Positions 196-32,042 of a DNA stretch of 58,455 bases are shown here, piece after piece. Origin of the DNA: Acidobacteriota bacterium (GTDB taxonomy: Bacteria > Acidobacteriota > Blastocatellia > Chloracidobacteriales > Chloracidobacteriaceae). The translations under genes were made by a program, and so were the position numbers. The DNA lies in NCBI GenBank assembly GCA_016208495.1, contig JACQXX010000047.1:1-58455 (forward strand). Reading direction: 5' to 3'. Under the pieces are notes generated by a model. The model searched no databases and was not told the DNA's origin. It saw nothing but the letters and a program-made list of their open reading frames with translations. Each line of letters begins with the position of its first letter. The stretch's first letter is position 1.

Positions 196-366
196 TCACC
201 CTGTCACCCTGTCACCTTGTCACCTTGTCACCTTGTCACCTTGTCACCTTGTCACCTTGTCACCTTGTCACCTTGTCACCTTGTCACCTTGTCACCTTGT
301 CACCTTGTCACCTTGTCACCCTGTCACCTTGTCACCCTGTCATTTGTCACCCTGTCATTCTGTCAC
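196..366. repeat. 8-bp tandem repeat array (CACCTTGT unit, about 21 copies)
   Basis: A run of about 21 head-to-tail octamers, mostly CACCTTGT with some CACCCTGT and a few degenerate units at the right edge. Because 8 is not a multiple of 3, all frames read the same 8-residue peptide repeat, so the open frames crossing it are artefacts. The right edge of the array supplies the TGA stop (355-357) of the A2M gene that follows on the minus strand. The same octamer in the opposite orientation forms a second array at 54268-54375. Confidence 0.95.
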
Positions 367-3300
367 GACAACCACATCTGCCCGCCCGCAGCCAAAAGTC
401 TCGGGGGCATACATTTCTTCGGCTTTGGGTGGTAGGGCGATAAACCTGCCCGGCGTGGTGGCAATGGCAAAATAGCGATAGGTATGGACGCCCTCCCACA
501 TCCGCGAGGCAAAAGCTTCGGCGCAATGGTCGCGCAGGTTCTGGTGTTCAAACCAGGTCCAGTCCCAAACCCGACCTTTGACTAAATCTTCTTCCTTGAT
601 CAACTGTACCGATCTGGTTGTTTTCAATTCCGGATTGAGGATTTCAAGTCCGGCAGGAAGCGGGTCAACCAGGGCGACGTGATACCGGCGTGATGGAACG
701 ACCAGCGTGACCGTGATTTTGACGCGAGCACCGGCGCGAATCTGCCATTCATTGGATCCAGAACGTTTGACATCGTCGGGGTCGTCAACGGCGTGGTATT
801 CACGTGAGACGCTAAACCCGGCTTCCACCGGCACTGGCATCACAGTGGTTGGGGCGTAGGTGAGTCCAAGCCGGTAATACATTCGGCCTGCGCCGGTTTT
901 GCTCAGCGTGACGGGTTTCGATTCGTCCGCCGTTCCAAGGTGCTTCATCGAAATGGAAAGCTGATGCTGGACGGTGGTTCGACCTTCGAAGACCTGTTCC
1001 CCGGCAAAGTCGTCGCCCAGCCAGATGCGAGCCAGAAAGTCCGGTGGCGTGGTTTCGTAGGTTGTGAAATACCGTTCCAATGCCAGCAATACAAACACGT
1101 TTTCCTGGGTGTTGAGCCAGCGGCCTTTCCGGCGATGTGCCAGCAGTCCTTGCACCAGTTTGGGAATCAGATCACTGTCCGGTTTCACCAACAGCAAGGC
1201 TTCAAGCAAAACCGCATCGGTTCGCCGATTGGAGTGCAGCAGCAGGCGTTCGTCGTCGGTGTGTGATTCGATAAAGCTGGCTGCGTGGCCGGTTTCAACC
1301 ACGCGATTGGACAGGTGTTGAATCAGGTGCTCGCATTCACCTCTGGTTTTTTCAGAGGCTGCCAGCACAGGCAACACCCAGCCGATGACTTCAAGCCGAA
1401 GCGTGGTGAGATCTCTGTTTTGAACCAGCAGGTTTGCCGATGTTGGGTTGGTGTCGTGATTGAGATGCCGCACATAGAGCGCATAGGCTTTCACTGCCAG
1501 TTTGGCATCCTCGGGGTACTTTGCTGGAAAACCCTGTTCGATTTTGCGCAGATAGCCGATAACGCTTGAGTACTGGAGATTTGAAGTCTCAATCACGCCT
1601 TTGTTTTTGGCTCGAACCAGAGCATGTGCCACATGAACACTCAAAAACGGGTCGGCTTTCTCTTTGTTTTTCCAGAATGAAAACCCGCCGCTGCTGTGCT
1701 GGCGTGAACTCAACACTTTCAAGTCTGCCTCAAGAAACCCAGACAGTTTCCAATTTGACGGGAGTTTCGACGATTCGGGGAACTGGCTCAGCACGTCTTT
1801 GAGCGCCGTCAGGCCCATGATTCGCGAAGCAATTTGTTCAGAACAATCAAACTGATATTCCGCGAGATAGAGCACTGCATCCGTCAACGCTTGAAGTTGG
1901 GTTGAAGTCGTTGTCACTTCCAGCTTGCCAAAGTTTTGGAGCACATCAGTCGGAACTGAAACCGGAATTTGAATTGGGTCATCCGCCACTTCGCCATAGG
2001 TCGCCGTGGCTTCGGTGGTTGCCGGTTCATAAATGGGCAGTTTCGATTGGGCCGCATCGCTTTCAGCTCCGGCACAGGCCGCGACATCCAGGATAGCGGG
2101 ACCGGGTTGTGTCGGGCTGGCGGGAATTCGAAGCTCCCGGCGGTCACCGGCTGGAACAACCAGATGCCGCCCAGCACCGTTGGGAAAGGACAGATGCGAT
2201 GACCGCACCGCCACGTCCACGGCCAGTAGTTCATCATTCTGATTTTGGATCACGATAGGCAGTTCAAACGCATCGCCGAAATTGAGAAAACGTGGTGGAG
2301 AAGGCCGAACCATCAACGGCAATCGGGCGGTGAGCGCCGATTCACCTTTTCCAAACAGATTGTCTCCGGCAACGGCAAACACCAGAATCCGATACCGCGT
2401 CAGGTTGTCCGGAAGCTCAATGTCAACTGTTGCCCGGCCCTGTTCGTCAGTCACAACCGACGGCACAAACGCCGCCAGCGGGGAAAAATTGGTTCGTAAT
2501 CGGATTGGGTCCTGGTCGCCCCCTGGTGACGCTGACAGAAGTTGCTGCAAGAGCCCGAATCTGCTTTCTGAGAGCGTCGCCGGGTTGAGTTCAATCGGCA
2601 TTGAAGCATAGACCGCTTCTTCCCGGAGGGGCGCCGCACCGTAGGCTGCACCGGCTGCCGCACCACCTTGCCGACGGAATAATTGATTCGGGTGGTCAGC
2701 CATTTCCAGATTACCCGAGAGTGGTGCCAGTACCAGATTGTCTCGGGTGTGATCAAAAACGGTTCCGGCCTTTCGCTTTTGATAGAACCACTCCGATGGG
2801 TCAACGTCAGGTCGCATCGAAAGCGCCAGAATGGCTTCATCCACCACAACCACCACGCACTCAGTATTTTGAACCGGTGTTCCGCTGACATCAGTCACCG
2901 CCAGCGTGATCGAAGTTTTACTTGCCGGGTAGACTTTCTCTTCTTTGGGCGTTGCGGTAACGGTGAGGCGACGAAGTTTGGCCGAAACCGAAAGTTCAAG
3001 CATACTGCTCGCGTAGGCCGGTTGCTTCGGAGCATCGGTCAGCTCGTTGGCGTTTTCATCCCGGCGGAAGGTTTCTCCGATGAGATTGACCTGAACCGTG
3101 ATATTGGGAATGTGATGGTCAGTAATCGGAATCAAAAATGTGCGGGCTGGCCTGTCGAGTGTGAATCGTTCGTAATGAATGACCCCTGACCGTTGAACGG
3201 TCAGGAGCCCTTCGGTTGGGAAGAACGGCGCTTGAAGCAGAATTTCAGCCGTTTCACCGGGGGCAAATGTTTTGCGGTTGGAAATCAATTCGAAATGTTC

Positions 3301-6300
3301 TTCGTGAAACTGAAGTGATCGTCGAGGTGATACCCCAGCTACCCAAAGGGAAATTACCGTTTGATTGGGCCGGTTTTGATCATCGCTGACGGTTGCCGTG
3401 AGTTGATACAGGCCACCCGTGGTTGGGGTTGATTTCCAGGTTACCGGGCTGGCTTCCGAAACGATTGTTTCTGATTGTGGGTCTACTTCGACCATCTCGA
3501 AACTGCGTTTCTGACGCTGCCATTCGATCCGAACCAGATCAAGCTGAATGGTTTTTCCAGCTTGCGGGGTGCCTTCCACATTGGTTGCAATCAGGTCTAT
3601 TTCAAGCGTTTCACCAGGGAAGACAAACCTTTGACGTGGGTTAAGACCGACATACAGTTCCGAGGGATGAACCAGAATGGTCGTTTTTGCCGTCTGAACC
3701 TGGCGATTGACATCAGTGACACTGGCTTCAACATTGACCACAACCGGAGCCGGTTGAGTCACTTCATCAAAATCAAACTGGATGCAGTGGTGGCCTTCGG
3801 CATCGGTTGTCCCCGTACAGGATTGGCCGATTCGAATGCCGGGAAATCGCCACCGATTATGCCCTTGATGACCAAAAGAAAACCCGTCCCAGTTTGGCGG
3901 CTCATACTTGCCATCACTGACCATACAATTCCATTGGGTTTCAGCTTTTTTGAGCGGCCCTCCGGCAAAATAACCGGCAAACACCGTTGCCAGCGCCGAA
4001 GTTCCAATCACGTGCGGGCCATCGCTGGTGGTCACTTTGAGTTCATATTCCGGACGTCGAAATTGTTGGATGTCAAAGGGATGCCGGTACGTAAGATTGT
4101 CGAGCTTTGCCGTGATTGAGCCTTTCAAGGTGAAGTGAATACTTGCCTGTCCCAGTTCGGCGTTGGTGGGAATTACAATCGAACCGTCAAACCCACCAAA
4201 TACATTGAGCCGAAGGGCACCTTTGACCAGGGAGCGTCCAGCCGCATCAGTGACCTGATAGGCCACAAGTTCCCGAAACCACTTACCCGATATCAGATCG
4301 CCACCTTTTTTCGTTTCAAGCTGCCGAATCCAGCCTTTGAATTTAAGCACTTCGCCCGGTTGATAGAGCCTTCGGTCATCAAAAACAAACCACCTGAGTT
4401 GACCTGCCAGTTTTTCGGTGAAAGATCCTGAATTACGTCTCCACCAGAATTTACTTTCGGGTAACAGGACTGAATCCGCTTCTTTGCGAACCACGAGAAA
4501 AGAGGTGCTTTGAACGGTCTTGTTCGATTCGGAAAAAAGCACCAGTCCCTGATGGTCAGTCTGACCGGAAAGCTGAGTTGGCAACAGGGTTACTTCAGCA
4601 TCTGCAATGGGTTTGCCGTCGGTCAAAGCATTGGCCCAAACCAGCAGGCCCTCTTGATCGGCCACAATGTCAGCCGCCAGACTGGTTGATTGAATCCAGA
4701 GAATTTCGGTGTCATTTCGGCTGGTTCGTTGAATTCCAATTGGATCAACCATCACGACCACATGTCCCAACCTATCAGTAAGCGCCGGGCTGAGATCAAT
4801 TCGGGTCGTTGTCACACGTCCCATATTGGACTCTGGAATCTCAATGGTTTGGTCACTGACCAGCAGGCCAGGTGGAAGCAGCGATTTTGCGTTTTTCTTC
4901 TGTTCGAAGTGAGTTGAGCGATAACTGACAAACTGTGACCAGTCTTCAGGCAGTACCCGAAACAATTGTACCCGGAGTTTGGGAATTCGATATGACGAGA
5001 GTTCAAACACCCGCTCCCCAGCCGGATCCAGAATGACCATCTCCCGGCGGTCGGTGCTCAGAAACGGACCGAAATGACCAAATTTCAGTATGACCTCACG
5101 TGGTTCGCCCAATTTTTGCCCGGATGTATCGCTCAACTCCCCAGAAAATTGAACAGTGTAGGTGGTATCTTCGGCAAACTTACCCATGAGAATCAGGTTG
5201 GTGTTGCTCACCGATAGTTTCAAATCAGATACTTCGGGGCAAACCGTAACCATCTCAGGCACAAAGGTTTCTTTGTTTAATTCATTGGAAAAGGTAAAGA
5301 ACAGCCAGTTGTCCGGTAAACATTCCTTGCGGTCCATACAGGGGTATGAAACCAGCCGCAACGGCCCCAGGGTGTGAAATGAGAAGGTCACATCTGTGGT
5401 CGTCACCAGGGGACCTTCCGCTGATGGAGTGCCGCTTTTGAGCCGGACCGTGACGTCAGCATCATTTGGCAGCGGGTTCACTGGCTGAAACAGAATCCAG
5501 CGTCCGGCTTTGGCATATTTCACCAGTTTGGAAAGCGGCTGGTTGGTTTCTCCAATCTGATCTGGAGAGGCAAGTTTGACCGGGAAGCGCTGGGTGCCGA
5601 CTTCGAGCGAAAGAGAGGGAAGTACCTTGAGTGGGTCAATTTGCTGGTCAAATTCAAGAAAGAGCAACGGCTGGAGCGGATACGTGCCTCTGGTTGGAAA
5701 TGACGCCTGCAACCTCGGAGGGAGTGTCTGGAATGTCCGTTCCTTTGATTTTGCCAGCGTATTGCCTGAACTCGACTGAATCCCCGCCGGAATCGTCACC
5801 CGAAAGAGCGTTGCCATCGGAAACCGTTCGGCTTCGGGTTCAAACATCAGGGTGTGGGTTCCGGCCCAGCGCCAGCGTCCTGGAGGCTGTGGTTCAAGAT
5901 GCACCAGCGTTTGTTGACTGGTCAGCATCTCGTGAAAACCCGCCAGCGCCACCATCGGTTCAGAAAAATGAACCGCAAGTGACTGGCAATATTCGACTTC
6001 CCCGACAGGCGAGACGCGCCGAATTTCCAGTGGTTTTTCGGGGCGGGCATCAGGGAGTTCAGGTCCTTCACCGGGCTGAAACTGTGCTTCGACCACCACG
6101 CCGGCAACGGGGAGTGGAAGTGATTTTTCAGGGAGAAACACGGCTGTCTCAGCCGAGGCAATCGGCGTTGCCGGCGGCAGCCGATTCAACAACTGTTCAG
6201 TCCGAACCGGATCCAGCAATTCAACCGGAGTCACCGAAGGGTCAACCGGCACGGCAGGCGTTGCTATTTCCCGAACCCGATATTTGAGGTCCAATGGTTG

Positions 6301-6306
6301 CGTCAT
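355..6306 (-). CDS. Alpha-2-macroglobulin family protein, copy A, lacking a signal peptide
   Basis: A 1983-residue bacterial A2M, a family that traps proteases through a bait region and a reactive thioester in the periplasm. Order: N-terminal macroglobulin/Ig-like domains from about residue 90 (HFSEPMVAL type motif), further MG domains to about 1190, a glycine/alanine-rich bait-like stretch at about 1195-1245, the A2M domain (LPDNLTRYRI) at about 1270-1360, a thioester domain with CSEQ at 1488-1491 (1834-1845), and a C-terminal bMG10-type domain from about 1805. The N-terminus MTQPLDLKYRVREI aligns with a point in copy B located after B's signal peptide; the upstream in-frame codons hit TGA with no other ATG, so export is unexplained. 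An inverted-repeat element begins 22 bp upstream. The protein may be stranded in the cytoplasm or untranslated. Confidence 0.93.
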   Translation of the reverse strand: MTQPLDLKYRVREIATPAVPVDPSVTPVELLDPVRTEQLLNRLPPATPIASAETAVFLPEKSLPLPVAGVVVEAQFQPGEGPELPDARPEKPLEIRRVSPVGEVEYCQSLAVHFSEPMVALAGFHEMLTSQQTLVHLEPQPPGRWRWAGTHTLMFEPEAERFPMATLFRVTIPAGIQSSSGNTLAKSKERTFQTLPPRLQASFPTRGTYPLQPLLFLEFDQQIDPLKVLPSLSLEVGTQRFPVKLASPDQIGETNQPLSKLVKYAKAGRWILFQPVNPLPNDADVTVRLKSGTPSAEGPLVTTTDVTFSFHTLGPLRLVSYPCMDRKECLPDNWLFFTFSNELNKETFVPEMVTVCPEVSDLKLSVSNTNLILMGKFAEDTTYTVQFSGELSDTSGQKLGEPREVILKFGHFGPFLSTDRREMVILDPAGERVFELSSYRIPKLRVQLFRVLPEDWSQFVSYRSTHFEQKKNAKSLLPPGLLVSDQTIEIPESNMGRVTTTRIDLSPALTDRLGHVVVMVDPIGIQRTSRNDTEILWIQSTSLAADIVADQEGLLVWANALTDGKPIADAEVTLLPTQLSGQTDHQGLVLFSESNKTVQSTSFLVVRKEADSVLLPESKFWWRRNSGSFTEKLAGQLRWFVFDDRRLYQPGEVLKFKGWIRQLETKKGGDLISGKWFRELVAYQVTDAAGRSLVKGALRLNVFGGFDGSIVIPTNAELGQASIHFTLKGSITAKLDNLTYRHPFDIQQFRRPEYELKVTTSDGPHVIGTSALATVFAGYFAGGPLKKAETQWNCMVSDGKYEPPNWDGFSFGHQGHNRWRFPGIRIGQSCTGTTDAEGHHCIQFDFDEVTQPAPVVVNVEASVTDVNRQVQTAKTTILVHPSELYVGLNPRQRFVFPGETLEIDLIATNVEGTPQAGKTIQLDLVRIEWQRQKRSFEMVEVDPQSETIVSEASPVTWKSTPTTGGLYQLTATVSDDQNRPNQTVISLWVAGVSPRRSLQFHEEHFELISNRKTFAPGETAEILLQAPFFPTEGLLTVQRSGVIHYERFTLDRPARTFLIPITDHHIPNITVQVNLIGETFRRDENANELTDAPKQPAYASSMLELSVSAKLRRLTVTATPKEEKVYPASKTSITLAVTDVSGTPVQNTECVVVVVDEAILALSMRPDVDPSEWFYQKRKAGTVFDHTRDNLVLAPLSGNLEMADHPNQLFRRQGGAAAGAAYGAAPLREEAVYASMPIELNPATLSESRFGLLQQLLSASPGGDQDPIRLRTNFSPLAAFVPSVVTDEQGRATVDIELPDNLTRYRILVFAVAGDNLFGKGESALTARLPLMVRPSPPRFLNFGDAFELPIVIQNQNDELLAVDVAVRSSHLSFPNGAGRHLVVPAGDRRELRIPASPTQPGPAILDVAACAGAESDAAQSKLPIYEPATTEATATYGEVADDPIQIPVSVPTDVLQNFGKLEVTTTSTQLQALTDAVLYLAEYQFDCSEQIASRIMGLTALKDVLSQFPESSKLPSNWKLSGFLEADLKVLSSRQHSSGGFSFWKNKEKADPFLSVHVAHALVRAKNKGVIETSNLQYSSVIGYLRKIEQGFPAKYPEDAKLAVKAYALYVRHLNHDTNPTSANLLVQNRDLTTLRLEVIGWVLPVLAASEKTRGECEHLIQHLSNRVVETGHAASFIESHTDDERLLLHSNRRTDAVLLEALLLVKPDSDLIPKLVQGLLAHRRKGRWLNTQENVFVLLALERYFTTYETTPPDFLARIWLGDDFAGEQVFEGRTTVQHQLSISMKHLGTADESKPVTLSKTGAGRMYYRLGLTYAPTTVMPVPVEAGFSVSREYHAVDDPDDVKRSGSNEWQIRAGARVKITVTLVVPSRRYHVALVDPLPAGLEILNPELKTTRSVQLIKEEDLVKGRVWDWTWFEHQNLRDHCAEAFASRMWEGVHTYRYFAIATTPGRFIALPPKAEEMYAPETFGCGRADVVVVTE

Positions 6307-6328: not shown

Positions 6329-6743
6329 GTTCAAGCTTTAGCTTGTAAAGATTTTATTTAATGAAGCTGCGTTGCGGAAAGTTCACGTGGGCTTGACAAG
6401 CCCCGCCCGCAGGGCGATGGATAGTAGCCGGTGGGCAGCCTGCTTTGAGGCGCACCCACCGGACCACAGGCCACAAATGGTTTGCGCCCGGATGGGCGCT
6501 GGATTAAAACCTCCAGGGATTTGGAGCTTTTACCAAAACCTTGCCGACGAACACTTCCAGCACCGATCCGGGCGCGAGCGGAAGGGGCATTGATCCGGTG
6601 GTATGCCCAAAGCGGCAAACCACCGGCTACTTTCCGACGCCCATCCGGGCGAAAACCGACCTTTCCGCAACGGAGTTTACAGAGGTTGAAAAACCAGAGT
6701 TGTTGCAGTATTGAGACTAAACCAGGCTAAAGCCTGAACTCTG
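6329..6743. repeat. Inverted-repeat element (MITE-like) with a nested 248-bp palindromic core
   Basis: Outer ends GTTCAGAGTTCAAGCTTTAG... (6329 on) and ...AGCCTGAACTCTGTAC (to about 6743) are inverted repeats of roughly 23 bp with about three mismatches. Inside lies a 248-bp core (6404-6651) whose ends, beginning CGCCCGCAGGGCGATGG on the left, pair with the right end ACGCCCATCCGGGCG. The core is related, with equal length, to 23834-24081. No transposase is encoded, so it would need to be mobilised in trans. It occupies the gene-free stretch between copy A and the zinc-ribbon array. Confidence 0.75.
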
Positions 6744-6806
6744 TACTCTTTTGCAATTATTCCTGGCAATCAATCCCAATAAATCAGTTTCATATTTTCC
6801 AAGGTT

Positions 6807-7169
6807 ATGCCCAATCTCATTGTCGTCAAGCAGTAATCTTTCCCAAAGCGATGCGAAGTTTGCCATCAGGCTGATTTCTTCAACCCAAAAAACAATCACT
6901 GCGCACGATGCCGGCAGATTGCCAGGAAATTTCAGACTTCAAGTAAAAAACCTGTTTCTCCAGATTATAGCGTTGTCGTTTGGACATGTGTGATTGGTGG
7001 GATAACAGTGCTTGGCTTGCTTTTGTATGCAGGAACCGTTCCTTTTTCTGCTGGACCATGCAACGGAGGTGGTTTGATTATGGCACTGGTCCTGTGTGTG
7101 ATCTGGTTTGTTTTATTTCTCCTGGCATTGTTCGTAGTTGTTTCAGAAACCCATAGAAATCCAAAATAA
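6807..7169 (+). pseudogene. Zinc-ribbon membrane protein, array copy 1, broken by TAA
   Basis: Read straight through, 6807-7169 gives a protein of the same design as the four following genes: a short N-terminus, a CxxC pair (RCEVCHQADFFNP), a second CxxC (CARC), then hydrophobic segments around a GPCNGGG motif, and a normal TAA at 7167-7169. Codon 10 is TAA (6834-6836) where the sister genes have GAA in the string KQE. No frameshift is needed, so this is a single-codon nonsense lesion. The first nine residues have also drifted (MPNLIVVKQ versus MPDEFVIKQ). Initiation downstream would lose nothing of the ribbon if a start existed, but no ATG lies before the first Cys pair. Confidence 0.85.
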
Positions 7170-7198
7170 TCTTTCAGTTTCCGAGTTGAGAAAGGCCA

Positions 7199-7567
7199 AT
7201 GCCTGACGAATTTGTAATCAAACAGGAAACCCTTCCGGCCAGATGCGAAGTTTGCCATCAGGCTGATTTCTTCAATCCGAAAACCAATCACTGCGCACGA
7301 TGCAGGCAGATTGCCAGGAAGCTTCAGAACCAATCCCAAACTTCAAACAAAAAAAGCGCACTTTCAATTTTTCAAGTGTTAAAGCGCGTGTTTACCATCG
7401 GCGGCGGATCATTCCTTGGGTTTGTATTGCATGTGGAAATGATTTCTCCAACTGGCGGCCCCTGCAATCCAGGGAGTGCGATATTGATCATTCCCATCTT
7501 TGGTTTCTGGTGCCTAATATTTATTCTGGGACTGATTGTTTTGCGTCCTCGAAATAGTTCGAAATAA
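7199..7567 (+). CDS. Small zinc-ribbon membrane protein, array copy 2
   Basis: 122 residues. The N-terminal third carries two CxxC knuckles (CEVC at about 16-19 and CARC at about 33-36), spaced as a zinc ribbon. The rest has two hydrophobic segments (about 63-80 and 90-113) flanking a GGPCNPG loop. The arrangement suggests a cytoplasmic zinc ribbon attached to a two-helix membrane hairpin. I do not know a named family or function. The start ATG opens the constant block shared by all copies; the gap to the preceding pseudogene is 29 bp and to the next gene 28 bp, so the array is likely one transcript. Copies keep a nearly constant N-terminal block and diverge after it. Confidence 0.8.
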   Translation: MPDEFVIKQETLPARCEVCHQADFFNPKTNHCARCRQIARKLQNQSQTSNKKSALSIFQVLKRVFTIGGGSFLGFVLHVEMISPTGGPCNPGSAILIIPIFGFWCLIFILGLIVLRPRNSSK

Positions 7568-7595
7568 CCGTCCGTTTCCACATTGAGCAAAGCCA

Positions 7596-7961
7596 ATGCC
7601 TGACGAATTTGTAATCAAACAGGAAACCTTTCCGGCCAGATGCGAAATCTGCCATCAGGCTGATTTTTTCGACCCGAAAACCAATCACTGCGCACGATGT
7701 AACCAGAACTTCCAGAGGTTTCCCCCCAGGCAGCTCGTCGAAACCAAAAAGCAATACTCCTCAAGCGCCAAAGATCTGGTATGGTTGCTCACCGTACCTG
7801 GAGCATTACTCATCGGGCTTTTGATGTTAGGAGAAGCTTATGATCAGGGAGGTCCCTGCAATGGTGGGCTGATTTTCATTCCCTTGCTTGGACTCTGGAT
7901 TCTTTCAATCCCCATTTGGATCATTGTCTATGGCGTGTGGAGAGCCTATCATCCAGAATGA
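7596..7961 (+). CDS. Small zinc-ribbon membrane protein, array copy 3
   Basis: 121 residues of the same design as its neighbours: CEIC and CARC knuckles in the first 40 residues, a hydrophilic linker (QLVETKKQYSSS), then hydrophobic segments at about 61-79 and 90-113 around a GGPCNGG loop. The first 25 residues are almost identical to copies 2, 4 and 5, while the linker and membrane part are only loosely similar. The function is not recognised. Confidence 0.8.
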   Translation: MPDEFVIKQETFPARCEICHQADFFDPKTNHCARCNQNFQRFPPRQLVETKKQYSSSAKDLVWLLTVPGALLIGLLMLGEAYDQGGPCNGGLIFIPLLGLWILSIPIWIIVYGVWRAYHPE

Positions 7962-7999
7962 GGTTCAACGAAATCCCAATTTCCAAACCAGCGTGCCTT

Positions 8000-8371
8000 A
8001 TGTCAGACGAATTTGTAATTAAACAGGAAACCCTCCCGGCCAGATGCGAAGTCTGCCATCAGGCTGATTTTTTTGAACCGGAAACCAATTACTGCGCACG
8101 ATGCGGCCACATTTCAAGGGGATTTGCGACCAAACGGCAGGCTTTAAGTTTGCAGCAAGCTAGTTCAACCAAAAGAGGGTTGATATGGCTGCTTTCGATC
8201 TTTGGCGTTGCTCTCTTTGGGATTTTCTATTATGTAGACCATCTCGCTCCATCGAAGAATCCATGCGGAGGCGGTAAATTGATTATCCTGCCGCTGTTGA
8301 TGATCTGGGGGTTTTTGTTGTTTTTTGCGCTCTTTGTGTATGTTTCGAGTAGTCCAAATAATTCAAAGTAA
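8000..8371 (+). CDS. Small zinc-ribbon membrane protein, array copy 4
   Basis: 123 residues starting at the ATG at 8000, which opens the block MSDEFVIKQETLPARC shared by the array. An in-frame ATG further upstream (7916) overlaps copy 3 and adds 28 non-conserved residues, so it is rejected as the start. CEVC and CARC knuckles are followed by a linker and two hydrophobic segments flanking a KNPCGGGK loop, a variant of the GGPCN loop of copies 1-3. Gap to copy 3 is 38 bp. Function unknown. Confidence 0.8.
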   Translation: MSDEFVIKQETLPARCEVCHQADFFEPETNYCARCGHISRGFATKRQALSLQQASSTKRGLIWLLSIFGVALFGIFYYVDHLAPSKNPCGGGKLIILPLLMIWGFLLFFALFVYVSSSPNNSK

Positions 8372-8442
8372 GTCAGGAAAAAAGTTTGGTCTATCCTGTT
8401 GAGATCAAAAGTTTTCAACCAGTTCCAGCCTGAGAATGGCAG

Positions 8443-8841
8443 ATGTCAGACGAATTTGTAATCAAACAGGAAACCCTCCCGGTCAGATGCGAGGTCTGCC
8501 ATCAGGTTGATTTCTTTGAACCGGAAACCAATTACTGCGCGCGTTGTTTTGCCGTCCTTGATCATCAGGGAGAAGGTTCCACCTTCCATCAAACACAGTT
8601 TGCTCTTTCCAGGTGGCAAGGCTATGCGGTGCTTGGTTCATTGTATGGACTGCCATTTGGCATCCTCGGACTTTTTTGGAGTTTCTCGCTTTTCACCTGG
8701 ACCTTTAATTTGGCGAGCCTTCTTTTGTTTTTCACCTGTCTGTTGATTGTATTGAGTTCGGTCTTGATTTTGATTGGGCTTGGGATTGCCTGGTTTGTCT
8801 CAACCCAAAAACTGATTTCAAAGGACAAAAAATCAGATTGA
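8443..8841 (+). CDS. Small zinc-ribbon membrane protein, array copy 5
   Basis: 132 residues, last member of the array. The ribbon (CEVC, CARC) and the constant first 38 residues match the others, but the membrane part differs: two long hydrophobic stretches (about 61-90 and 93-120) with no GPCN-like loop. It ends in a lysine/aspartate-rich tail. The stop falls at the beginning of an intergenic repeat block (8840). This is the clearest case of the constant N-terminus being joined to a different membrane module. Confidence 0.78.
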   Translation: MSDEFVIKQETLPVRCEVCHQVDFFEPETNYCARCFAVLDHQGEGSTFHQTQFALSRWQGYAVLGSLYGLPFGILGLFWSFSLFTWTFNLASLLLFFTCLLIVLSSVLILIGLGIAWFVSTQKLISKDKKSD

Positions 8842-8912
8842 CGCTCAAGTGAGTTTCCCCACTTAACCAATTTTGATTCAACTATTTACGTGAGCGTCAA
8901 CGCGTTGACACA
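8840..8912. repeat. Intergenic block P, copy 1, with palindrome
   Basis: A block of about 73 bp repeated near 19453, 24950 and 32137. It contains GAGTTTCCCCACTTAA and ends in a perfect 14-bp palindrome GTCAACGCGTTGAC (8896-8909). It leads directly into palindromic element copy 1. It sits between the converging end of the zinc-ribbon array and copy B. The palindrome could be an operator or part of a mobile element; no downstream T-run is present, so it is not a standard terminator. Confidence 0.75.
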
Positions 8913-8913
8913 A

Positions 8914-9030
8914 TTTGGAGTGCGCCGACTTGTCGGCGCTTTGGTTCCGGTGACTTGTCACCGTTGGAATGAAATCAATGAGCGACAAGTCGCTGCATAA
9001 CAAAGCGGTGACAAGTCACAGCACTCCAAA
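8914..9030. repeat. Palindromic element (MITE-like), copy 1
   Basis: Bounded by TTTGGAGTGC and GCACTCCAAA. Inside are four short stem-loops with the core ACTTGT or ACAAGT: GCGCCGACTTGTCGGCGC, GGTGACTTGTCACC, GCGACAAGTCGC and GTGACAAGTCAC. The two left cores are complementary to the two right ones, so the whole can also fold as one hairpin. The element lies against the last codons of copy B and its edge (AAAAGTTAG) supplies B's stop codon. Confidence 0.85.
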
Positions 9031-9032
9031 AG

Positions 9033-12000
9033 TTAGTACACTCCTTCTTGAACCTGTGATGCAAAAGCCTGGGCACAATTGTCGCGCAAGTTCTGATGGT
9101 CAAACCAGTTCCAGTCGCTTCCCGTGTTGTTTTTCATCGTTTGGACGGCCTGCCAGTTGAGTGTTCCCGTTGTTTTGAAGACCGGGTTGAGGATTTCAAA
9201 TCCTGCCGGAAGCGGATCTACCAGTGCGACATGGTGCCGCCGTGATGGGACAACCATCGTGACGGTGACCTGAACCCGCGCACCGGCTCGAATCTGCCAT
9301 TCGTTTGGTCCGAGACGTTGCACATCGTCCGGGTTATCTACGGCCTGATATAAACGCGAAATAGCAAAACCTGCGTCTACGGCCTGGGTTTTCAGAGCGT
9401 CCAGCCCATATTCAAGCCCAAGCCGGTAATACAATCGGCCCGGCCCGGTTTTGCTCAGGGTAATCGGTTTGGACTGGCTGACTGTTCCCAACGTGTCAAA
9501 TGGGATCGAAAGCTGATGCGGCCCGGTGGTTCGTCCTTGAAAGGAGTGCGCTCCGGCAAAGTCTTCACCCAGCCAGAGGCGGGCCACAAAGTCCGGTGTC
9601 ACTGTTTCGTGCATCGAGACGTACCGATCCAACGCCAGCAACACAAACGCGTTTTCCTGCGTGTTGGCCCAGCGACCCTGGGTTTTGTGTGCCAGCAGCC
9701 CGCGCACCAGTTTGGGAATCAGGTCACTTTCCGGTTTCACCACCAGCAGTGCTCCGAGCACAATTGCATCGGTTCGGCGATTGGAATGTAGCAGCAGGTG
9801 TTCGTCATCAGTGATGGATTCGACAAAGCCGGCTTCAGCATTCGTTTCGGTCACCCGATTGGACAGGTGTTGAATCAGGCGCTGGCATTCACCTCGGGTC
9901 TGGTCAGATGCGGCCAGGACCGGCAACACCCACCCAATTGTCTCCAGCCGGAGTGCGCTTAAATCTCTCTCCTCAATCAGTTGTTGGGCGGCCAGTGGGT
10001 TTGTGTCACCATTGAAATGACGGACATAGAGTGCATAGGCTCTGACTGCCTGCCTGGCGTCGGGTGGATAGAAATTCGGGAAGGCATGCTCGATGTTTTG
10101 CACATAGGCGGCGGCATTCCTCACGAGATTGTCTGAAAGGTTGACGAGCCCTTGTTGTTTGGCACGAATCAGCGCATGCGCGACGTGAACACTCAAAAAT
10201 GGGTCTGAGTTGCCGTCCTTTGTCCAGAAGGAAAATCCGCCGTCCGCATTCTGCCGGGAACGCAGACGGTTGAGGTCAGCCTGGAAAAAGGCTTCAAACT
10301 GTGCTGGTTGTGGAAGATTTGAAATCCCTTTGAATTGTCCCAAAACATCGTTGAGCGCCACCAACCCGATCATTCGTGAGGCAATTTGTTCTGAACAGTC
10401 AAACGGATAGTTCGCCAGATACACCGCCGCATCTGTCAAGGACTGGAGCTGGGTTGACGAAAGTGTGAGTTCGAGCTTTCCAGACTTTGGAAGTGTGCCT
10501 TCAGGCAGCGAAACCGGGAGTTGAACCGCCGAACCGGTGACTTCGCCATACACGGCGGTCGTCTCAAGCGTGGCTGAAGTATAAATTTTCAATTTCGCCT
10601 GGGCGCCGTCACTTTCATTCCCGGCGCTGGCGGCTACGTCAATGATGGCGGGTCCAATCCGAGCAGGAGCGGCTGGAATCCGCACTTCCCGCCGGTCATT
10701 GGCTGGAACAATGACCCGTCGCCCGGCACCTTCGGGAAAAGACAGGTACTGAGATCGAACCGCGACCTCAACCGCCAGCGGCTCCGCTTCCTGGTTTTGG
10801 ATCACAACCGGGAGTTGAAACTGGTCTCCGAGATTGAGAAACCTGGGGGCGGATGGCCGAACCATCAACAGCAGCCGCGTCGTGAGCACTGATTCGCCTT
10901 TTCCAAACAAATTGTCTCCAGCCGCCGCAAAAACCAGGATTCGATACCGGGTCAGGTTGTCTGGAAGCTCAATCTCGACGGTTGCCCGGCCCTGATTATT
11001 GGTCACAACCGATGGCGAAAATGCAGCCAGCGGCGAAAAATGAGTTCGTAGTCGAATTGGCGGCTGAGAATTTTTTTGCGAAGCCGTTGGCGATGTTTTT
11101 CCCCAGCGGGAATCTTCAAGTGGGTTTTCATCTATCGGGAATGCCTCGCTCAAAAGCCAGCCTCCCTCGTCACCTCCAGCCAGCGAGCCACCAGCTCCGG
11201 CAGCGCCACGACTCGGTGGACGAAAGGCCACGGCCTGGCGGGGCGCACCTGTCACTTCCTCCAACGAAGCCAACTGAAACCAGTCTCGTGACCGTCGGGT
11301 GAAGGTTCCAGCTTCGCGCTTTTGGTAGATCACCTCCAGCGGGTCAACGGGGAAGCGACGAGCAATCAGTGCCAGGATTGCTTCATCAACCACAACCACG
11401 GCGCATTCACTTTCGGCAACTGGTTTTCCGGCAGCATCAGTCACATCAATCTCAATTGAAGTTTGGCTCCCCGGAGCAACATGTTCTGCCACTGGTTTGG
11501 CCGTAACGGTTAAGCGACGCGATTGAGTCGAGACAGCAAGTTCAACTGTACCACTGGCGTAGGCTGGCTGTTTGGGTACCGAGGTCACTTCCGCCCCCGT
11601 TTCATCCCGTCGGAACACTTCACCGACCAGATTGACCTGAAGCGTGATATTTGGAATCTGGCTTTCGTCAATTGGAATCTTGAAAAGTCGGGCTGGCTGG
11701 TCGAGCGTGAAGCGTTCGTGATGGATGACCCCTGACCGCTGGATGGTGAGCAATCCTTCCGCCGGGAAAAACGGCGCTTGCAGCAAAAGTTCCGCCGTTT
11801 CGCCCGGAGCATACTCTGTGCGATTGGAAATCAGTTTAACGTCTTCTTCTTCGAACTCAGGCAAACGTCCCTGAGTTGAACCCGCAACCCACACTGAAAC
11901 AACCGTTTGATGAAGTCGGTTTTGATCATCAGCTACGGTTGCCGTGAGCTGGTATTCACCGCTCTGGATTGGTGAAAATTCCCAGGTGACCGGGGTGGCG

Positions 12001-14966: not shown

Positions 14967-14972
14967 GAGAAA

Positions 14973-15000
14973 TTTTGGAGCGCGCCGACCTGTCAGCACT
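14973..15000. repeat. Remnant of the palindromic element
   Basis: TTTTGGAGCGCGCCGACCTG and the following TCAGCACT match the left end and first stem of the palindromic element with several changes; the rest is missing. It lies at the start of copy B, where its translation would add residues before the signal peptide. Confidence 0.6.
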
Positions 15001-19525: not shown

Positions 19526-19690
19526 TTTGGAGTGCGCCGACTTGTCGGCGCTTTGGTTCCGGTGACTTGTCACCGTTGGAATGAAATCAATGAGCGACAA
19601 GTCGCTGCATAACAAAGCGGTGACAAGTCACAGCACTCCAAAAGTTAGGCATAACAAAGCGGTGACAAGTCACAGCACTCCAAAAGTTAG
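19526..19690. repeat. Palindromic element, copy 3, with duplicated right end
   Basis: Almost identical to copy 1 (19526-19642). Its right end is followed by a perfect 42-bp tandem duplication: 19607-19648 is repeated at 19649-19690. The last bases give the TAA stop of A2M remnant E. Confidence 0.88.
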
Positions 19691-20726: not shown

Positions 20727-20747
20727 GGAAAAAGACTTAAAAGTGGA

Positions 20748-21200
20748 TTAGCAAATTTGATCCCATTTTTTTGCAACAACAAATAGGGTCAAGTGGCGAA
20801 GATTTTCAGTCGCCACCTCAACATTGTATCCCTGACCTGCCAGTGAATTGGCCTGGGCACAAAGGATCATGTCAGCATCCAGTTTACAATCATCGGTTGT
20901 CTGCTTTCCTTGCTTTCGGGCATCAGCCCAATACTGAGCAGCCTTTTTCATCACTTTTGAATTGATGGGAAGATAGAGATGGTAACCAATAAACTCATCT
21001 AATCGCTTGATACCATTTGTTTTATTGCCTCTGATAAGTTCACGTCTTAGCTCATAGTCGCATATTTCAGGAACGACAATCGTGATTTGGTTTAGTACAA
21101 GAGATTGAACCCACTCACTCATTTTCACTCGGAGATCAGTTTGTTTTGGGTTTGTAACTTCACTCAAAATAGAGGTATCAAAAAGGACATAACGGTTCAT
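20748..21200 (-). CDS. PIN-domain ribonuclease, VapC-like toxin
   Basis: 150 residues with the PIN acid set: D8 (LFDTSILSEV), E45/E50 (VPEICDYELRRE), D108/D110 (KLDADMILCAQANSL) and a final VATENLRHL motif, which in the family often reads VATTNVxHL. PIN proteins are Mg-dependent RNases, usually toxins. The start overlaps the stop of the upstream 582-aa gene by four bases (ATGA, 21197-21200), so the two are translationally coupled, as in toxin-antitoxin pairs. Base composition is clearly more AT-rich than the flanking A2M genes, which suits horizontal arrival. The stop is only 21 bp from the A2M junction. Confidence 0.88.
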   Translation of the reverse strand: MNRYVLFDTSILSEVTNPKQTDLRVKMSEWVQSLVLNQITIVVPEICDYELRRELIRGNKTNGIKRLDEFIGYHLYLPINSKVMKKAAQYWADARKQGKQTTDDCKLDADMILCAQANSLAGQGYNVEVATENLRHLTLFVVAKKWDQIC

Positions 21201-22945: not shown

Positions 22946-23152
22946 AGTCATGCTCCATCAAATTTCAAAAACTAAAACAATAAAAATCCCAAAAGTGTGA
23001 ACCAGTTGAGGTGTTTAAAACAAATGCAAACCGCTGAAACTCAATTCAAAAGGCAAATGAATTGTCCCCAATTTGGAGCAAGCAAGCAAGCAAAAGAAGC
23101 CCTCACCCTCCAGAGAATCGTACCTTGATATTTGAGCAGGATCATTTTCGAC
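22946..23152. promoter_or_regulatory. Leader of the PIN cassette
   Basis: AT-rich 207 bp between the 582-aa gene and the A2M remnant, presumably the promoter of the pair. It contains a short AGCA/CAAG tandem (gcaagcaagcaagca, about 23081-23096). I could not pick a convincing -35/-10 pair. Confidence 0.35.
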
Positions 23153-23720
23153 CTTCCCAGCGCCATTTCCCTGGAGGCTGCGGAGTCAGCTTGACCGGCA
23201 CTGGCTGGTTGGAAAGTTCGGCCAGCGACGTCAGTGCCACCATTGGCTCTGAAAACGTCACACTCACGTTTGGTGCCAGTTCGACGGCGCCTTCAGGGCG
23301 AAAGCGTTCGACTGTGAACGGCACGTCAGGTCCTGATACCGTTGATTTTGATGAAGCTGGAAAGGCTGGATTCCCTGAACCTGATGGTTGAGGCGGTTTG
23401 GGCTGGTTTTTGGGAAATTGAAAAGCCGGCTGTAGCGGTTCGGAAGCGTTTGAAAGCTGCGGAAGTCGCTGTAACAAACTTTCGGTTTGTGCCGGAGTGA
23501 GTGGCGAGGGAATCAGCCGGGGTCTGGTGATAACTGAAGGCGCGGATACCTGACCTTCCCGGATTTTGATTTTCAAGCCGATTTCTTCTCCGGCCTGGGA
23601 TTGCGGGCTGGTTGATTCCGGTTGAGAAGCGAACGGCACAACTGAAGGTGAAGCAAATTCCCACGTTGCAACCGCAACCAAAAACGCAAGTATCCAGAGC
23701 TGGTTTTTCAACATCCGCAT
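23153..23720 (-). pseudogene. A2M copy E, N-terminal remnant
   Basis: About 190 codons: signal peptide (QLWILAFLVAVATW), then the proline-rich N-terminus and first Ig-like domain, closely matching copy F residues 1-190 (PSVVPFASQPESTSPQS is identical). Similarity ends at about 23153 within PPGKWRW, and the frame stops four codons later (23142). With the piece at 19687-20726 it forms one gene whose middle (about 1480 codons in F) was lost and replaced by roughly 2.4 kb carrying the PIN pair. Confidence 0.88.
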
Positions 23721-25994: not shown

Positions 25995-28900
25995 CTATTC
26001 GTCAGTCACTTTAATAATCTCGGTCTGGCTTCGGCCAAAGGTTTCAGGTGAATACATTTCTTCAGCTTTGGCCGGTGGTACCAGGAATTTCCCTGGTGTG
26101 GTCGCCACGGCAAAAAAGCTGTAGGTGTAGACGCCTTCTGAAAGCAAAGCCGTGAACGCTTCGGCCCGGTTGTCGCGCAGGTTCTGATGGTCAAACCAGG
26201 AACGTTGCCACCAGTTCAACCGGGGTGGTTCTTCGTCATCTGGAAGCCTCGGCGTGGTGGCCAGCGCCGGATTCAAAATCTCCAATCCAGCCGGGAGCGG
26301 ACAACTGAGCGCGACGTGAGCACGGCGGGCGGGCGCCACCATCCTGACCGTGACTTTGACCCGCGCTCCAGCCCGGATTTGCCATTCAGTGGCAGAAATT
26401 CGTTTTACATCGGCTGGATTGTCAACCGCACTGTACTCACGCGAAATGGTAAATCCGGCTTCCAGTGGAGGGAGCATCACTTCTTTCGGTGCGTAGCTCA
26501 ACCCCAGCCGATAATACATCCGACCCACCCCGTTTTTGCCGAGCGTGATGGATTTCGTTTCGCCAGGTTTTCCCACCTGATTCAAAGGAATTCCAATCTG
26601 ATGCTGGTCGGCAGTTCGGCCAGCGAAGCGATGCTCTCCGGCAAACGTGTCATGCAGCCAGACCCGAGCCAGAAAGTCAGGTGTTTGTTTTTCAAAGGTT
26701 GAGAAATAGCGTTCGAGCGCGAGCAGGACAAAAGCATTTTCCTGGGTGTTTGACCAGCGACCGTTGACGCGATGGGCCAGCAGTCCCCGGACGAGTTTGG
26801 GAATCAGGTCGCTGTCAGGTTTTACCAAAAGCAGCGCGTCGAGGATGACTGCATCAGTGCGGCGGTTGGAATGCAAGAGCACGGCGGCCCCATCGGAATA
26901 GGATTCGACAAAGCTGGCGGCACCAGCAGTTTCGGTGATGCGGTTGCTCATCACGTGCAGCAGGGCGCTGAGTTCCAACTTTGTATCTGGATTTTTAGCC
27001 AGCACAGGGAGCAACCAGCCAATGGCCTCGATAGGGAGTTTGTCAGCACCAGTTTCCTTGACCAGCTCCCTGGCGGCGCCAGCATCGCTATCACCAGTCA
27101 AATGCCGAACATACAGCGCATAGGCCAGCAACGTTTGGCGTGACTCAGGGCTGTATTCTTTTGGGATGTGATCTTTGATCTTCGAAAGGTAGTCTTTGGA
27201 ACTTCCCAGCAAAAAATGAGGGACGGTATACCCTTTTTGTTTGGCTCGAATCAGGGCATGGGCCACGTGAATGCTGAGAAACGGCAGCGGTTTTTCACTC
27301 CGAGACCAGAACCCAAATCCACCATGAAGGTCGTGAACTTTTTCAAGCTGGTCGAGGTCAGCCGCGACCTGTGTTTGATATGCTTCCGGGGTTGGCCGGC
27401 CCAGTGCGCGAAGTTCGGTCAATACTTCTTGCAAGGCTGTAATGGCCAGAATTCGAGATGCAATCTGCTCAGTACAGCGATAGGGATAGTCCATCAGGTA
27501 CAACACGGCATCCGTCAGCGTCTGGAGTTGGGTTGAGGAGGTTGTCATTTCAAGCTGACTGAATTCAGGTCGAGCATCGGTGGGAATTGTCAAAGGCAAT
27601 TGAATCGTTCCTCCCTGGAGTTCCCCATAGGTTGCAACGGCTTCGGTCATCGTGGGCGGTTTCACCGGAAACGATCCGCTGGCAGCATCACTGGCCAGGT
27701 CTGAACTGGCCACGACCTGGAAAAAGACGGCGCCTGTGGTTTGTGGAATAGCTGGAAATCGAACTTCAACCCGGTCATGAGCTGGAACCAAAACCATGTG
27801 CCCGGCACCCTGGGGAAAATTCATCTGCCCGGATTGGATGGCCACTTTGATGTGCTGAGCCTGGTCGGTTTGATTGTGGATCGTCACCGGAAGTTCAAAC
27901 TCATCACCGAAGTTGAGAAATCGTGGCGCCGATGGGCGCACCATCAACGGAAGCCACGTCGTGATGGTTGATTCACCTTTGCCAAAGCATTTTTCGCCGT
28001 CAGTTGCCAGGGCAATTACTCGATACCGGGTCAGGTTGTCAGGCATGGTGACGGTGACCACCGCTTTGCCGTCGGCATCGGTCACCACTGACGGGGCAAA
28101 AACCGCCAGCGGATCAAAATTGGACCGCAATGGAATTGGTTGTGCTGACTGGTTTGGGGTGGCGATAGCATCTTGGGCCAGACCAGACTGAGGTCCCGCT
28201 TCACGATTTTTGCTTGAGGATTCTTCCGTTGTGATCCGAGCCTGACGCTTGAGCACATACGACGTGATCGGGAGAAACCGATCAGCCGCGGGCCTGACCT
28301 GTAACAGGCTGGTGATATCAGTTGTTAATTCTGATTCCGAGGCTCGCCGAATTGAATCACGAAGGGTTTGAAAATTACTTCCGAATAACTGGTCACGATG
28401 CATCACCTCGACTGGATCCTGAATTTCACCGTTGACCAGTGCCAGTATGGCTTCATCCACCACCGCAACCACACATTCACTCTCCGGAACTGGTTTCCCG
28501 GTATGGTCCCGGACTTCCAGATTGATGGTGGTCGCTGACCCCGGTGCAAGCTGGTCAACCAGTGGTTTGGCGGTGACAGAGAGGGTACGGGAGCGCGACG
28601 AGACCGGAATCTCAATCCAACCGGTGGCAGAGATTGGGCATTTGGGAAGCTGGAACAGTTCGGTGCCATCTTCATCGGCTCGAACCATTTCGCCACGCAG
28701 GTAAACCGAAACGCGAATGGCTGGAATGAAGTTGTCTTCAAGTGGAACGTGCAGCACCTGGGATAACTCATTGAGTTCGATGGAGTGATAGGTGATGATG
28801 CCGTCCCGTTCGACGGTCATCATACCCTGGGCTGGGAGAAATGGTGAATTCACCAGAACGTGGGCCGTTTCACCCGGCTGGTATTCCTTTTTGTCAGGGA

Positions 28901-31900
28901 TGAGTTCAAATTCCAGGTCGTTAACCCAGTTGGTAAAGTGTCTTTTTTCACGCGAAACCCAGACCGAAGCTTCAGTTTCAGACGGACGGCCCTGATCGTC
29001 AACCACGCGGGCTCTGATGACATATTCTCCTCCTGCCGTTGGGGTAAAGCGCCAGATGACTGGTGTTTGATCGGTTGTGATCTGGCCTGTTCCCTGGATT
29101 TCCTCAGTTTCTTGCCAGAGCCCAAAATGGTACGACCGTTGAATTCTGAAAACCTGAAACTGAACGGTTCTTGCAATTTGTGCCACGCCGTCAATCGTTG
29201 TGACGATGGTTTCAATTTCAAATGGTTCGCCTGGGGTAGAAAAAGATCGTCTTGGGTTGAGACCGACATACTGTGTGGCCGGATGGACCAGAAACTGGGT
29301 TGAATTGTAAATTTGCTGGCGGTTGACATCGGCCACGGTGGCTTCAACCTGGACCAGGGTTGGGAATGGCGGGTTGACACTCTCGAAATCAAGGTGGAGC
29401 TGATGCCTGCCCAACCCATCTGTTTTTCCCGTAAATGATTGTTCGTTTTGAAATTCCGGATAGGTTACGTCCCACCAGGGATGCCATTTTCCAAAGGTGA
29501 ATTGATCCCAGTTCGGTGGCGTGTAAGAGGTTTCCGAGGTGGCGATGGTCCACCGAACCTCGGCCTCAGATAAACCATTCCCCGAAAAATACGTTGCCTG
29601 GGCCACGAGTTCGGCTGAACTGCCAGCCATCTGAAGTGGCGCTGGCGGCTGAATCGAAACTTGAAATTCAGGCCGGCGGAATTCTTCAACCTGAAAGGAA
29701 TGCCAGTGAGTCTGGCGGCCCACGTTCGCTTGCGCCTCTGGCAAGACGATTTCAAAATAAATGCGTGCCAAACCCAGTACGGTTGATTCTGGAAGCCGGA
29801 ATTTCCCATCAAATCCGCCAAACCGGTTTGTCGTCAGATGGCCAGTCGCCACTGTATTGCCTATTAAATCTTTCACTTCAAAGCTGAGTGGTGTGGGTTG
29901 GGTGCTTATCCCGATGATATCTCCGCCAGGTTTACTTTCGATAGCTCGGATCCAGCCTTTGAAGTGGACTTCTTCCCCTGGGCGGTAGATCAAACGGTCA
30001 TCAAAAACAAACCAGTTGAGCCTTTTCTTCAGCGGCTTTCGAAACCAGCCATCTTTTTCAATCCCTGAAAAGAACCGTCCCTGTAAAAGAGCGCTGTCTG
30101 TTCCATGTCGAACTACCAGATACTCGGCAACCGTGCCAGATTCCGGGGTCGGCAAAGGAAGTTCCATCAAGGCGACTCCGGTGTGATCGGTTCGGATCCC
30201 TATTTGTGATGGGAAGAGTGTCACCAGCGCATTGCCAATCGGTTTTCCATTTTGAAGCTGGCTGGATGTGATCAAAAGGTGAGTCGGGTCTTGAAGTGCT
30301 TCGACCGCCATCTGGGTGACCTGGAGCCACTGGTAACTGCGCAGGACCTGATTGTTTTCACCCTGGGTTGAGAGTTCAACGATGGCATGACCAACCGTAC
30401 CAGTTAACGCCGGTCTGAGGTCAATGTTGACTTCATAGCGTTGGATTGGGTCGGATGGGAGGGACAGTTCTTTGTCTTCCAGAAGTTATCCTGGAAAGTT
30501 CAATGTTGCCTGATCCTGGTTCTTGCTGGGTGTGCCGTCAATCCGAGCAAAGGCCGGCCAGTCATCCGGAGTAACTTTAAAAAGTTTCACTCGAACTTTT
30601 GGATGTTTTCGAACATAGGCTCTGGCAATCGGCGGGCCGGCTGGATCAATTGTAACCAGCCTTCCTCCGGACAAATGAAAGTCAGATGGGAAATTGGTTT
30701 GTTGAATCGAAACCTGGGTTTCTCCGGCAAGTGATTGACCAAAAACATCCTTGAGTTGTGGTAGAAAAGTCACCGTGTAGGTTGGTTGTTCCAGCTTCCA
30801 TCCATCAATGAAAATCCGACAGTCTCTGACCGAAATTTCCTGGTATTTCAACGGAGGAGAAACAACGACCTGATCGGGTGAAAATGATTTTTCATCCAGC
30901 GGGTTATTCAGTTCATACCACCATCCATCCTGGTACTGAGTTTCCTGGCTATCCTGCCAGGTTTTTACAATTTTCAGTGGTGAAAACGTGTGAAATGAAA
31001 AAGACTGAGGGGCTGTGGCGTGGAGCGGACCTTCAGTTGATGTGAGGCCGGTATCAAAGATCACTGTCACCTGCGAATCACGCGGTAACGCCTGAACCGG
31101 TTTCAAGACCAGGCACGCCCCAATTTGAGCTGTATCAACCCGCGCTTTGATATCTGGATTGGCTTCGATTTCAGTTTGGGTGGCCAGTCTGACCGGAACG
31201 GTGTGTTTTCCAGCTTTGATCCGCACTTTTTCAAGCACCATGGCCGGGTTCATTCGCTGATTGAATTCGACAAACACGAGCGGGGTCAGTGGCTCGGAAT
31301 CGCTGTCTGGTGAGAAGGAAACCAGCTTCGGTGTGGGGGTTGAAAACGTCCATTCCGAGGTGGTGGGCAGTTTCTTTCCCGCCAGCGACCGGATGTGCGC
31401 CGGAATGGTGACTTTGTACTGAGTCGCCATCGGGAACCGCCCGCCGTCAGGTTCAAACACCAGCGTTTTGGTGCCGACCCAACGCCATTTCCCTGGAGGC
31501 TGCGGTGTCAGTTTGACCGGCACTGGCTGGTTGGAAAGTTCGGCCAGCGATGTCAGCGCCACCATTGGTTCTGAAAACGTCACACTCAGGTTTGGTGCCA
31601 GTTCGACCGTTCCCTGGGGGCGAAAGCGTTCGACTTTGAGCGGCACGTCAGGTCCTGATGTCGTTGATTTTGATGAAGCTGGAAAGGCTGGATTTCCTGA
31701 ACTTGAGAACTGGGGAGGTTTGAGTTGATTTTTGGGAAATTGAAAAGCCGGCTGTGGCGGTTCGGAAGCGTTTGAAATCTGCGGGAGTCGCTGCAATAAA
31801 CTTTGGGTTTGTGCCGGAGTGAGTGGCGAGGGAATCAGCCGGGGTCTGGTGATAACTGAAGGCGTGGATAGCTGGCCTTCCCGGATTTTGATTTTCAAGC

Positions 31901-32042
31901 CGATTTCTGCTTCAGTTTTGGATTGTGGGCTGGTTGATTCCGGTTGAGAAGCGAACGGTACAACCGAAGGCAAGGTACATTCGCACATCCCAGCCACAAC
32001 CACAAAACCCAAAATCCAGAGTCCGTATCGAAATACTCGCAT
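25995..32042 (-). pseudogene. Alpha-2-macroglobulin family protein, copy F, one in-frame TAA
   Basis: One frame of 2015 codons interrupted once by TAA at 30486-30488 (codon 519); no shift of frame. The residue before the stop is the G of a PPGxL motif present in A-D, and the stop occupies the variable x position (L, K, R or W in sisters), so AAA to TAA or similar is a simple cause. Signal peptide (WILGFVVVAGMCEC), Ig-like and MG domains, bait-like region, A2M domain (MPDNLTRYRV), CTEQ thioester at about codon 1523 (27465-27476) and the bMG10-type domain are all present. As sequenced it yields a 518-residue N-terminal piece; the downstream 1438-residue frame starts at an internal Met with no signal. 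A base-calling error is possible. Confidence 0.88.

Follow-up and report, generated by a model that had tools for sequence, protein, structure and literature searches.

An amplified array of six A2M-derived genes that probably combines late lesions with reduced architectures

Contig C47, the whole of which is the window analysed here (58,455 nucleotides), carries six A2M-derived genes (copies A to F), all on the minus strand and transcribed in the order F, E, C, D, B, A (Table 1). The genome comprises 8,375,582 bases in 177 contigs and is 99% complete. The array is probably the outcome of a lineage-specific amplification in which E is dead, A, B and F carry late lesions, and C and D are reduced architectures, C perhaps acting as a decoy or partner and D as a stalk or partner. 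The original prediction was of six A2M copies, each with a different lesion, and all of the lesions that it listed were present on re-examination.

Table 1. Features of the A2M array on contig C47.
Feature	Position	Strand	Description
Copy A	355..6306	-	A2M of 1983 aa with a CSEQ thioester; signal peptide absent by eye; RDHC at the RDxR position
Dispersed repeat block	6370..6700		Adjoins A upstream, at the expected place of leader and signal peptide
Small CxxC-pair ORF family	6782..8841	+	Four frames are open; a fifth copy is older and partial
197-bp spacer	8840..9036		Contains the 60-bp motif and a palindromic element; lies where the 3' end of B is shortened
Copy B	9033..15017	-	A2M, 1994-aa open frame, CSEQ, RDxR changed to RDNC, EEMY lost
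Copy D	15057..16247	-	396 aa, signal peptide by eye, MG0-NIE-MG1 plus 43-residue unmatched tail
Palindromic dispersed element	16265..16392		Between C stop and D start
Copy C	16400..19435	-	1011 aa; by eye has a signal peptide; extends from MG0 to the MG domain that holds the bait; MG7/CUB/TED/RBD arm absent
60-bp motif	19463..19522	-	16-bp palindrome, fixed spacing, 27 bp ahead of C ATG
Palindromic element and 42-bp tandem duplication	19526..19684		3' of E stop
Copy E, C-terminal remnant	19687..20727	-	Ends in bMG10
Module replacing E middle	20748..22951	-	PIN/VapC-like 150-aa gene and 584-aa gene
Copy E, N-terminal remnant	23142..23720	-	192 aa, signal peptide by eye
Copy F	25995..32042	-	2015-codon A2M, CTEQ, in-frame TAA at 30488-30486

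Amplification, descent and selection

A six-frame search with PF00207 found 11 matches in this genome, four of them on C47; 57 relatives hold 89 matches in total, with a maximum of six and a median of one, and 13 of them hold none. PF00207 does not match copies D and E, which brings the A2M-derived genes of the genome to at least 13. Contig C43 carries two further full-length copies, C43a (2040 codons) and C43b (2031 codons), both as open frames. In a tree of 26 rows, these two copies and A to F form one clade (SH-aLRT 100), which adjoins two copies from a genome of the same family (G002). The end branches of the tree are 0.47 for C43a, 0.54 for A, 0.54 for B, 1.43 for C43b, 1.83 for D and 3.08 for C. 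The predicted tandem amplification of the family is thus borne out by a genome-specific clade of eight and by a count of PF00207 matches that at most reaches six in any of the 57 relatives. The clade of eight, together with the short branch of C43a, implies that one gene multiplied in this lineage and that a founder-like copy survives elsewhere; C43a, the slowest copy, is the nearest to the ancestral form. According to the proposed mechanism, the founder would have been a single thioester A2M gene, and its duplicates would have evolved fast under purifying selection, in the manner of an expanded set of periplasmic protease traps.

Two further groupings were considered and not adopted. A single assembled array comprising the C47 genes and the C43 copies was not supported by the contig ends, which gave no join by eye. 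A clade of C and D, with an SH-aLRT of 96 in the full tree, is a meeting of long branches that loses its support when the shared region alone is used (AU p 0.395); the grouping is neither shown nor rejected.

Several observations concern relatives of these genes and the rest of the window. One A2M copy of G002 (L079 5860-7166) is interrupted within its bait linker by roughly 1.3 kb of sequence resembling, by eye, a two-frame transposase. All five loci in named genomes that match F (25995-30311) are in Chloroflexota/Anaerolineae MAGs, with 34-45% identity, in a scan whose strict patterns may omit near relatives; the C43 copies, 40-45% identical to F, are about as close to it. The window also contains an IscB RNA-guided nuclease gene at 36363-37640 (NCBIfam NF040563, 319.8 bits), about 20 copies of TCACCTTG at 196-357, where A stops close to the end of the contig, and TGACAGGG repeats at 54269-54370.

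A codon model of 1870 codons gave w of 0.28 for A, 0.21 for B, 0.27 for F, 0.19 for C43a and 0.27 for C43b, values that are rough on the deep branches because dS there is near saturation; the third-position identity between full-length copies is 0.36-0.45. For the pair of E and F, w is 0.28 over 538 codons. Judged by the survival of frames against stops, the neutral share of a branch is at most 2.3% for A, 1.6% for B, 1.7% for F (with its one stop), 2.0% for C and 4.6% for D, the limits for C and D being computed with the dS of the F branch because their own branch dS is saturated. Purifying selection has therefore acted on copies A, B and F through almost their entire history, and their lesions are late; the three copies are freshly broken or nearly so. 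The selection recorded in C and D may all predate their shortening. Two other lines of evidence were discarded. The slower evolution of F than of E after their split (0.14 versus 0.44) is not relied upon, as holding the two rates equal costs only 0.8 log units, and the frame-keeping indels relative to C43a (21 in A, 22 in B, 15 in F and 23 in C) include some that fall on the C43a branch; moreover, indels counted on a protein alignment merely restate that the frames are open.

Extent of copies C and D

The thioester half was predicted to be missing from C and D, and both do stop ahead of the thioester domain and have no CxEQ. Both also lack about 300 N-terminal residues, the extra stretch in which the full-length copies hold one or more Big_5-type domains. 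The PF00207 match of C covers positions 4-47 of 92 with a score of 18.3, below the cut-off of 21 bits, and the sole Pfam hit of D is weak (E 0.0099). Most of one internal domain of C is lost, the domain having collapsed. The model of C predicted by AlphaFold from ten sequences has a mean pLDDT of 64.6 with many stretches of 75-90; it is disordered at 876-961, the place of the bait, and its last strand occupies residues 1003-1010 of 1011. Superposed with VIA-align, residues 76-1011 of this predicted model pair with residues 56-1007 of Salmonella A2M (4u48; Z 22.8, rmsd 12.7 over 686 residues); a separate alignment row pairs C, as far as residue 1011, with ECAM as far as residue 1015. According to the accessible text of PMC4498604, the bait region domain of ECAM includes residues 923-942 and 947-963, and its TED arm is made up of TED, CUB, CTMG and MG9 in a ten-MG numbering; the names MG0, NIE and MG1-MG7 used here follow PDB titles and the available part of PMC12939704. 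The solved 639-residue fragment of YfhM begins to match copy B with its own residue 12 at B 1389, and the similarity of C to B ends at B 1376. From the ends of the alignments of C and the start of this fragment, C stops approximately where the TED arm starts.

The predicted model of D (mean pLDDT 71.4) is folded from about residue 50 to 350 and has a disordered tail at 354-396. Residues 38-349 superpose on the MG0-NIE-MG1 domains of ECAM, residues 57-367 (4zjg; Z 17.4, rmsd 11.4 over 279), and residues 140-350 superpose on NIE-MG1 (4zjh; Z 17.7, rmsd 2.9 over 192). The alignments open at ECAM 57-64 or SaA2M 53-56, so that C and D begin about where the first domain of ECAM does. With moderate confidence, then, C and D are taken to be reduced architectures cut at domain borders.

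A second A2M without the arm was found on contig C112 (L009:1582-5568, minus strand, 1329 aa). It belongs to another A2M subfamily and is about 30% identical to its two full-length neighbours. Its PF00207 match covers positions 1-47 of 92 (1-50 in the six-frame search), ending at the same position as that of C, a border placed by Pfam only. When the C112 proteins were used to query 1.58 kb of the 3' flank of this copy with tblastn, no trace of a C-terminal half was recovered. The only other short matches among 100 to PF00207 are 1-66 in G029, at a contig edge, and 46-79 in G056, in a frame of 62 codons. The C112 copy also carries a CarboxypepD_reg domain at 1128-1206. The domain-border ends of C and D and the termination of the C112 copy at the PF00207 position of C are more readily explained by a reduced architecture than by random damage, though they are not proof of it.

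If C is a reduced architecture, it would be a body from MG0 to MG6 that holds the bait, with one domain collapsed and without the MG7-CUB-TED-RBD arm. Such a protein would be exported and cleavable in its bait and would form no bond to the protease, and so could be a bait decoy or a scaffold or partner for the thioester copies: with bait and body and no arm, C can at most be cut, bind loosely, or act as partner of another copy. We consider C most likely to serve as a secreted decoy or assembly partner, and when C is taken alone this use and a mere relic are about evenly balanced. Copy D would be an MG0-NIE-MG1 stalk, conceivably one close to the membrane, or a partner.

An alternative that we regard as doubtful, though it deserves weight, is that all six copies are wreckage, that the C43 genes carry the ancestral function, and that the array decays piecemeal with C and D further along than the others. 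Every copy on C47 has some lesion, the repeats and the PIN module lie within the array, two full-length paralogues exist, and the longest branches are those of C and D. C is also the least conserved copy: over its span, 361 columns are invariant in five relatives, of which C keeps 50%, A, B, F and C43b 60-66%, and C43a 79%, so that C keeps the fewest; over the span of D, which has 123 such columns, D keeps 50%, F 49% and C 49%. A search of 396 genomes of the phylum, none of the same genus, found no orthologue of C, the sole outside protein past E 1e-60 being in a frame of 2015 codons. Wreckage is difficult to reconcile, however, with w of 0.21-0.28 in A, B and F, with the presence of zero stops in the 1011 codons of C and the 396 codons of D despite about 30% identity to their paralogues, with the coincidence of the ends of C and D with domain borders, and with a C112 copy that ends at the PF00207 position of C. 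The original prediction had offered decay or diversification of the family; general decay is not supported, in view of purifying selection on A, B and F and the cutting of C and D at domain borders, and diversification is retained.

Lesions of A, B, E and F and the repeats beside them

The thioester motif is CSEQ in A, B, C43a and C43b and CTEQ in F, so the prediction that thioesters persist holds for A, B and F, in which A2M_BRD, A2M and bMG10 are matched in order (Pfam; in F, in the downstream frame). By eye, B, C, D, E and F have recognizable signal peptides and A has none. In the accessible text of PMC4498604, the RDDR and EXMY motifs of the last domain contact the thioester domain before cleavage. 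The corresponding lock motifs are RDNR and EEMY in F, RDHC and EEMY in A, RDDR and EEMY in C43a, and KSDR and EEMY in C43b; B has RDNC and has lost EEMY with its tail, and so its thioester should be poorly protected. No pbpC neighbour was found among the 17 window proteins scanned with Pfam.

The late lesions of A, B and F would be, respectively, the loss of leader and signal peptide, the loss of the last 43 or so residues together with the EEMY lock, and one nonsense codon. As predicted, A shows no signal peptide by eye: the frame starts at the conserved LKYRVRE block, and upstream of it there is no A2M leader in the frame of A, with stops and a dispersed repeat instead. Within this repeat, 6404-6503 is an 80% inverted match to 23982-24081. 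B stops after EGVY, about 43 residues short (approximately 45 had been predicted), its bMG10 match reaching only position 103 of 131, and the 197-bp spacer takes the place of the tail. That spacer is 96% identical to the spacer between E and C (19452-19648), and the copied spacer at the end of B probably accounts for the lost tail. The start of B is likely at 14966, and translation of B, C and D probably begins at ATGs inside their open frames. The single TAA predicted in F was found, with 1438 open codons downstream that begin with ATG. The two pieces of E match residues 1-192 and 1669-2014 of F; the middle, correctly predicted to be lost, has been exchanged for 2.4 kb with two other genes. 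The smaller, PIN/VapC-like gene (150 aa) has weak matches and is overlapped by the 584-aa gene, which contains a weak DUF5678 stretch; a homologue of the 584-aa protein, 28% identical, is encoded on contig C109. The middle of E would thus have been swapped for a PIN-type module, and E is almost surely dead.

The palindromic element is about 110-130 bp long, with edges TTTGGAGTGC and GCACTCCAAA and hairpins of GACTTGTC type, and its sites in the window are 8914-9030, 16265-16392, 19526-19684 and 34270-34388. Its 24-base core has 33 hits in the genome with three or fewer mismatches, compared with 0 in the control. At B, C and E, 3-8 bp separate the element from the stop; among 20 other loci outside the window, chosen from the stronger matches, scored against any frames of at least 100 codons and with no shuffled control, it lies 14 bp or less from a stop codon in eight, in one of which it overlaps the end of the frame. 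As a position next to a stop is, on this count, a usual one for the element, it was rejected as the cause of the truncation of C.

The 60-bp motif has six exact copies in the genome, all at the two A2M loci, and none in the 57 relatives; those in the window, besides the copy ahead of C, are at 8851-8910, 24954-25013 and 32144-32203. It precedes C by 27 bp, C43b by 2 bp and F by about 100 bp, and on C43 it also stands 2 bp before a small CxxC-pair gene; two copies head no such gene. Weaker copies occur on C43, C39 and C65. An A2M promoter was rejected as anything beyond a possibility, with two of the six exact copies heading neither an A2M nor a related gene and with weaker copies on C39 and C65. 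The CxxC-pair family itself appears zinc-ribbon-like by eye and has a membrane stretch and a conserved N-terminus followed by divergent sequence; on C43, members of this family also come after the A2M pair, and one of them is headed by the 60-bp motif.

Small repeats had been proposed as the main agents of damage. Of the six lesions, this suits those of A (the upstream block) and B (the 197-bp spacer); E was hit by a gene module and F by one codon.

Errors of assembly or consensus in this repeat-rich region are an improbable source of some lesions, chiefly the TAA of F and conceivably also the ends of A and B. The genome is a draft of 177 contigs, repeats lie where A and B have their damaged ends, and F is otherwise open with w of 0.27, the window and C43 paralogues having Lys, Leu, Trp or Arg at or beside the TAA codon; the repeats that make up the end sequence of A and B are, however, also found elsewhere in the genome. 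Still less credible is the reconstruction of one trap from parts, either with F read as two proteins or with C or D assembling in trans with another copy: the long frame of F downstream of its TAA and the fact that, its collapsed domain and missing N-terminal stretch aside, C is without nothing but the arm found in other copies are set against the lack of a signal peptide, as judged by eye, in that downstream frame of F, the location of the other PF00207 matches of the genome in frames of about 1500-2050 codons, and the occurrence of a single arm-only piece among seven bMG10 matches in the genome, namely the C-terminal remnant of E, which has no CSEQ.

Comparison with known bacterial A2Ms

Only when domain borders and dN/dS are measured can late damage be told from modular shortening. 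The amplified array would show that bacteria can diversify their protease traps by gene amplification, and two A2Ms of different subfamilies in one genome that end at the start of the trapping arm would show that the bait-bearing body can be useful alone. We tentatively suggest that in this lineage A2M domains have been turned into separate secreted proteins, namely bodies with bait and no arm (C and, independently, the C112 copy) and a stalk alone (D), as a third kind besides Types I and II. If this is true, decoys, sensors or assembly partners exist beside fast-diversifying thioester traps with which they partly share the 60-bp upstream motif. The bacterial A2Ms compared, as described in the accessible literature, are long traps with or without a thioester, and a record-level literature search, with most subscription journals outside its range, met no bacterial A2Ms that lack the TED or stand in tandem.

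In the available part of PMC5764988, a Type I A2M is cut in its bait and then forms a thioester bond to the protease, and Type II MagD traps without a thioester. With the Type I proteins of E. coli (YfhM/ECAM) and Salmonella (SaA2M), copies A, B and F share the MG body, the bait, the CxEQ motif and the last domain (CTMG/RBD, bMG10), and the predicted models of C and D superpose on domains of these proteins. The present family differs from Type I in the length of its full-length copies (about 2000 aa, including the extra N-terminal residues), in the grouping of eight paralogues in one clade, in the absence (by eye) of a signal peptide from A, and in the absence of the thioester arm from C and D. 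Like the Type II protein MagD of P. aeruginosa, C keeps a bait and has no CxEQ; as the same part of PMC5764988 describes it, MagD is full-size at 165 kDa and is encoded in the six-gene mag operon, whereas C lacks MG7, CUB, TED and RBD and has A2M copies as neighbours. D spans the same three domains as the crystallographic construct of ECAM MG0-NIE-MG1 (PDB 4zjg), to about the same end; unlike that construct, it is a separate natural open frame with a signal peptide of its own (by eye) and an unmatched tail.
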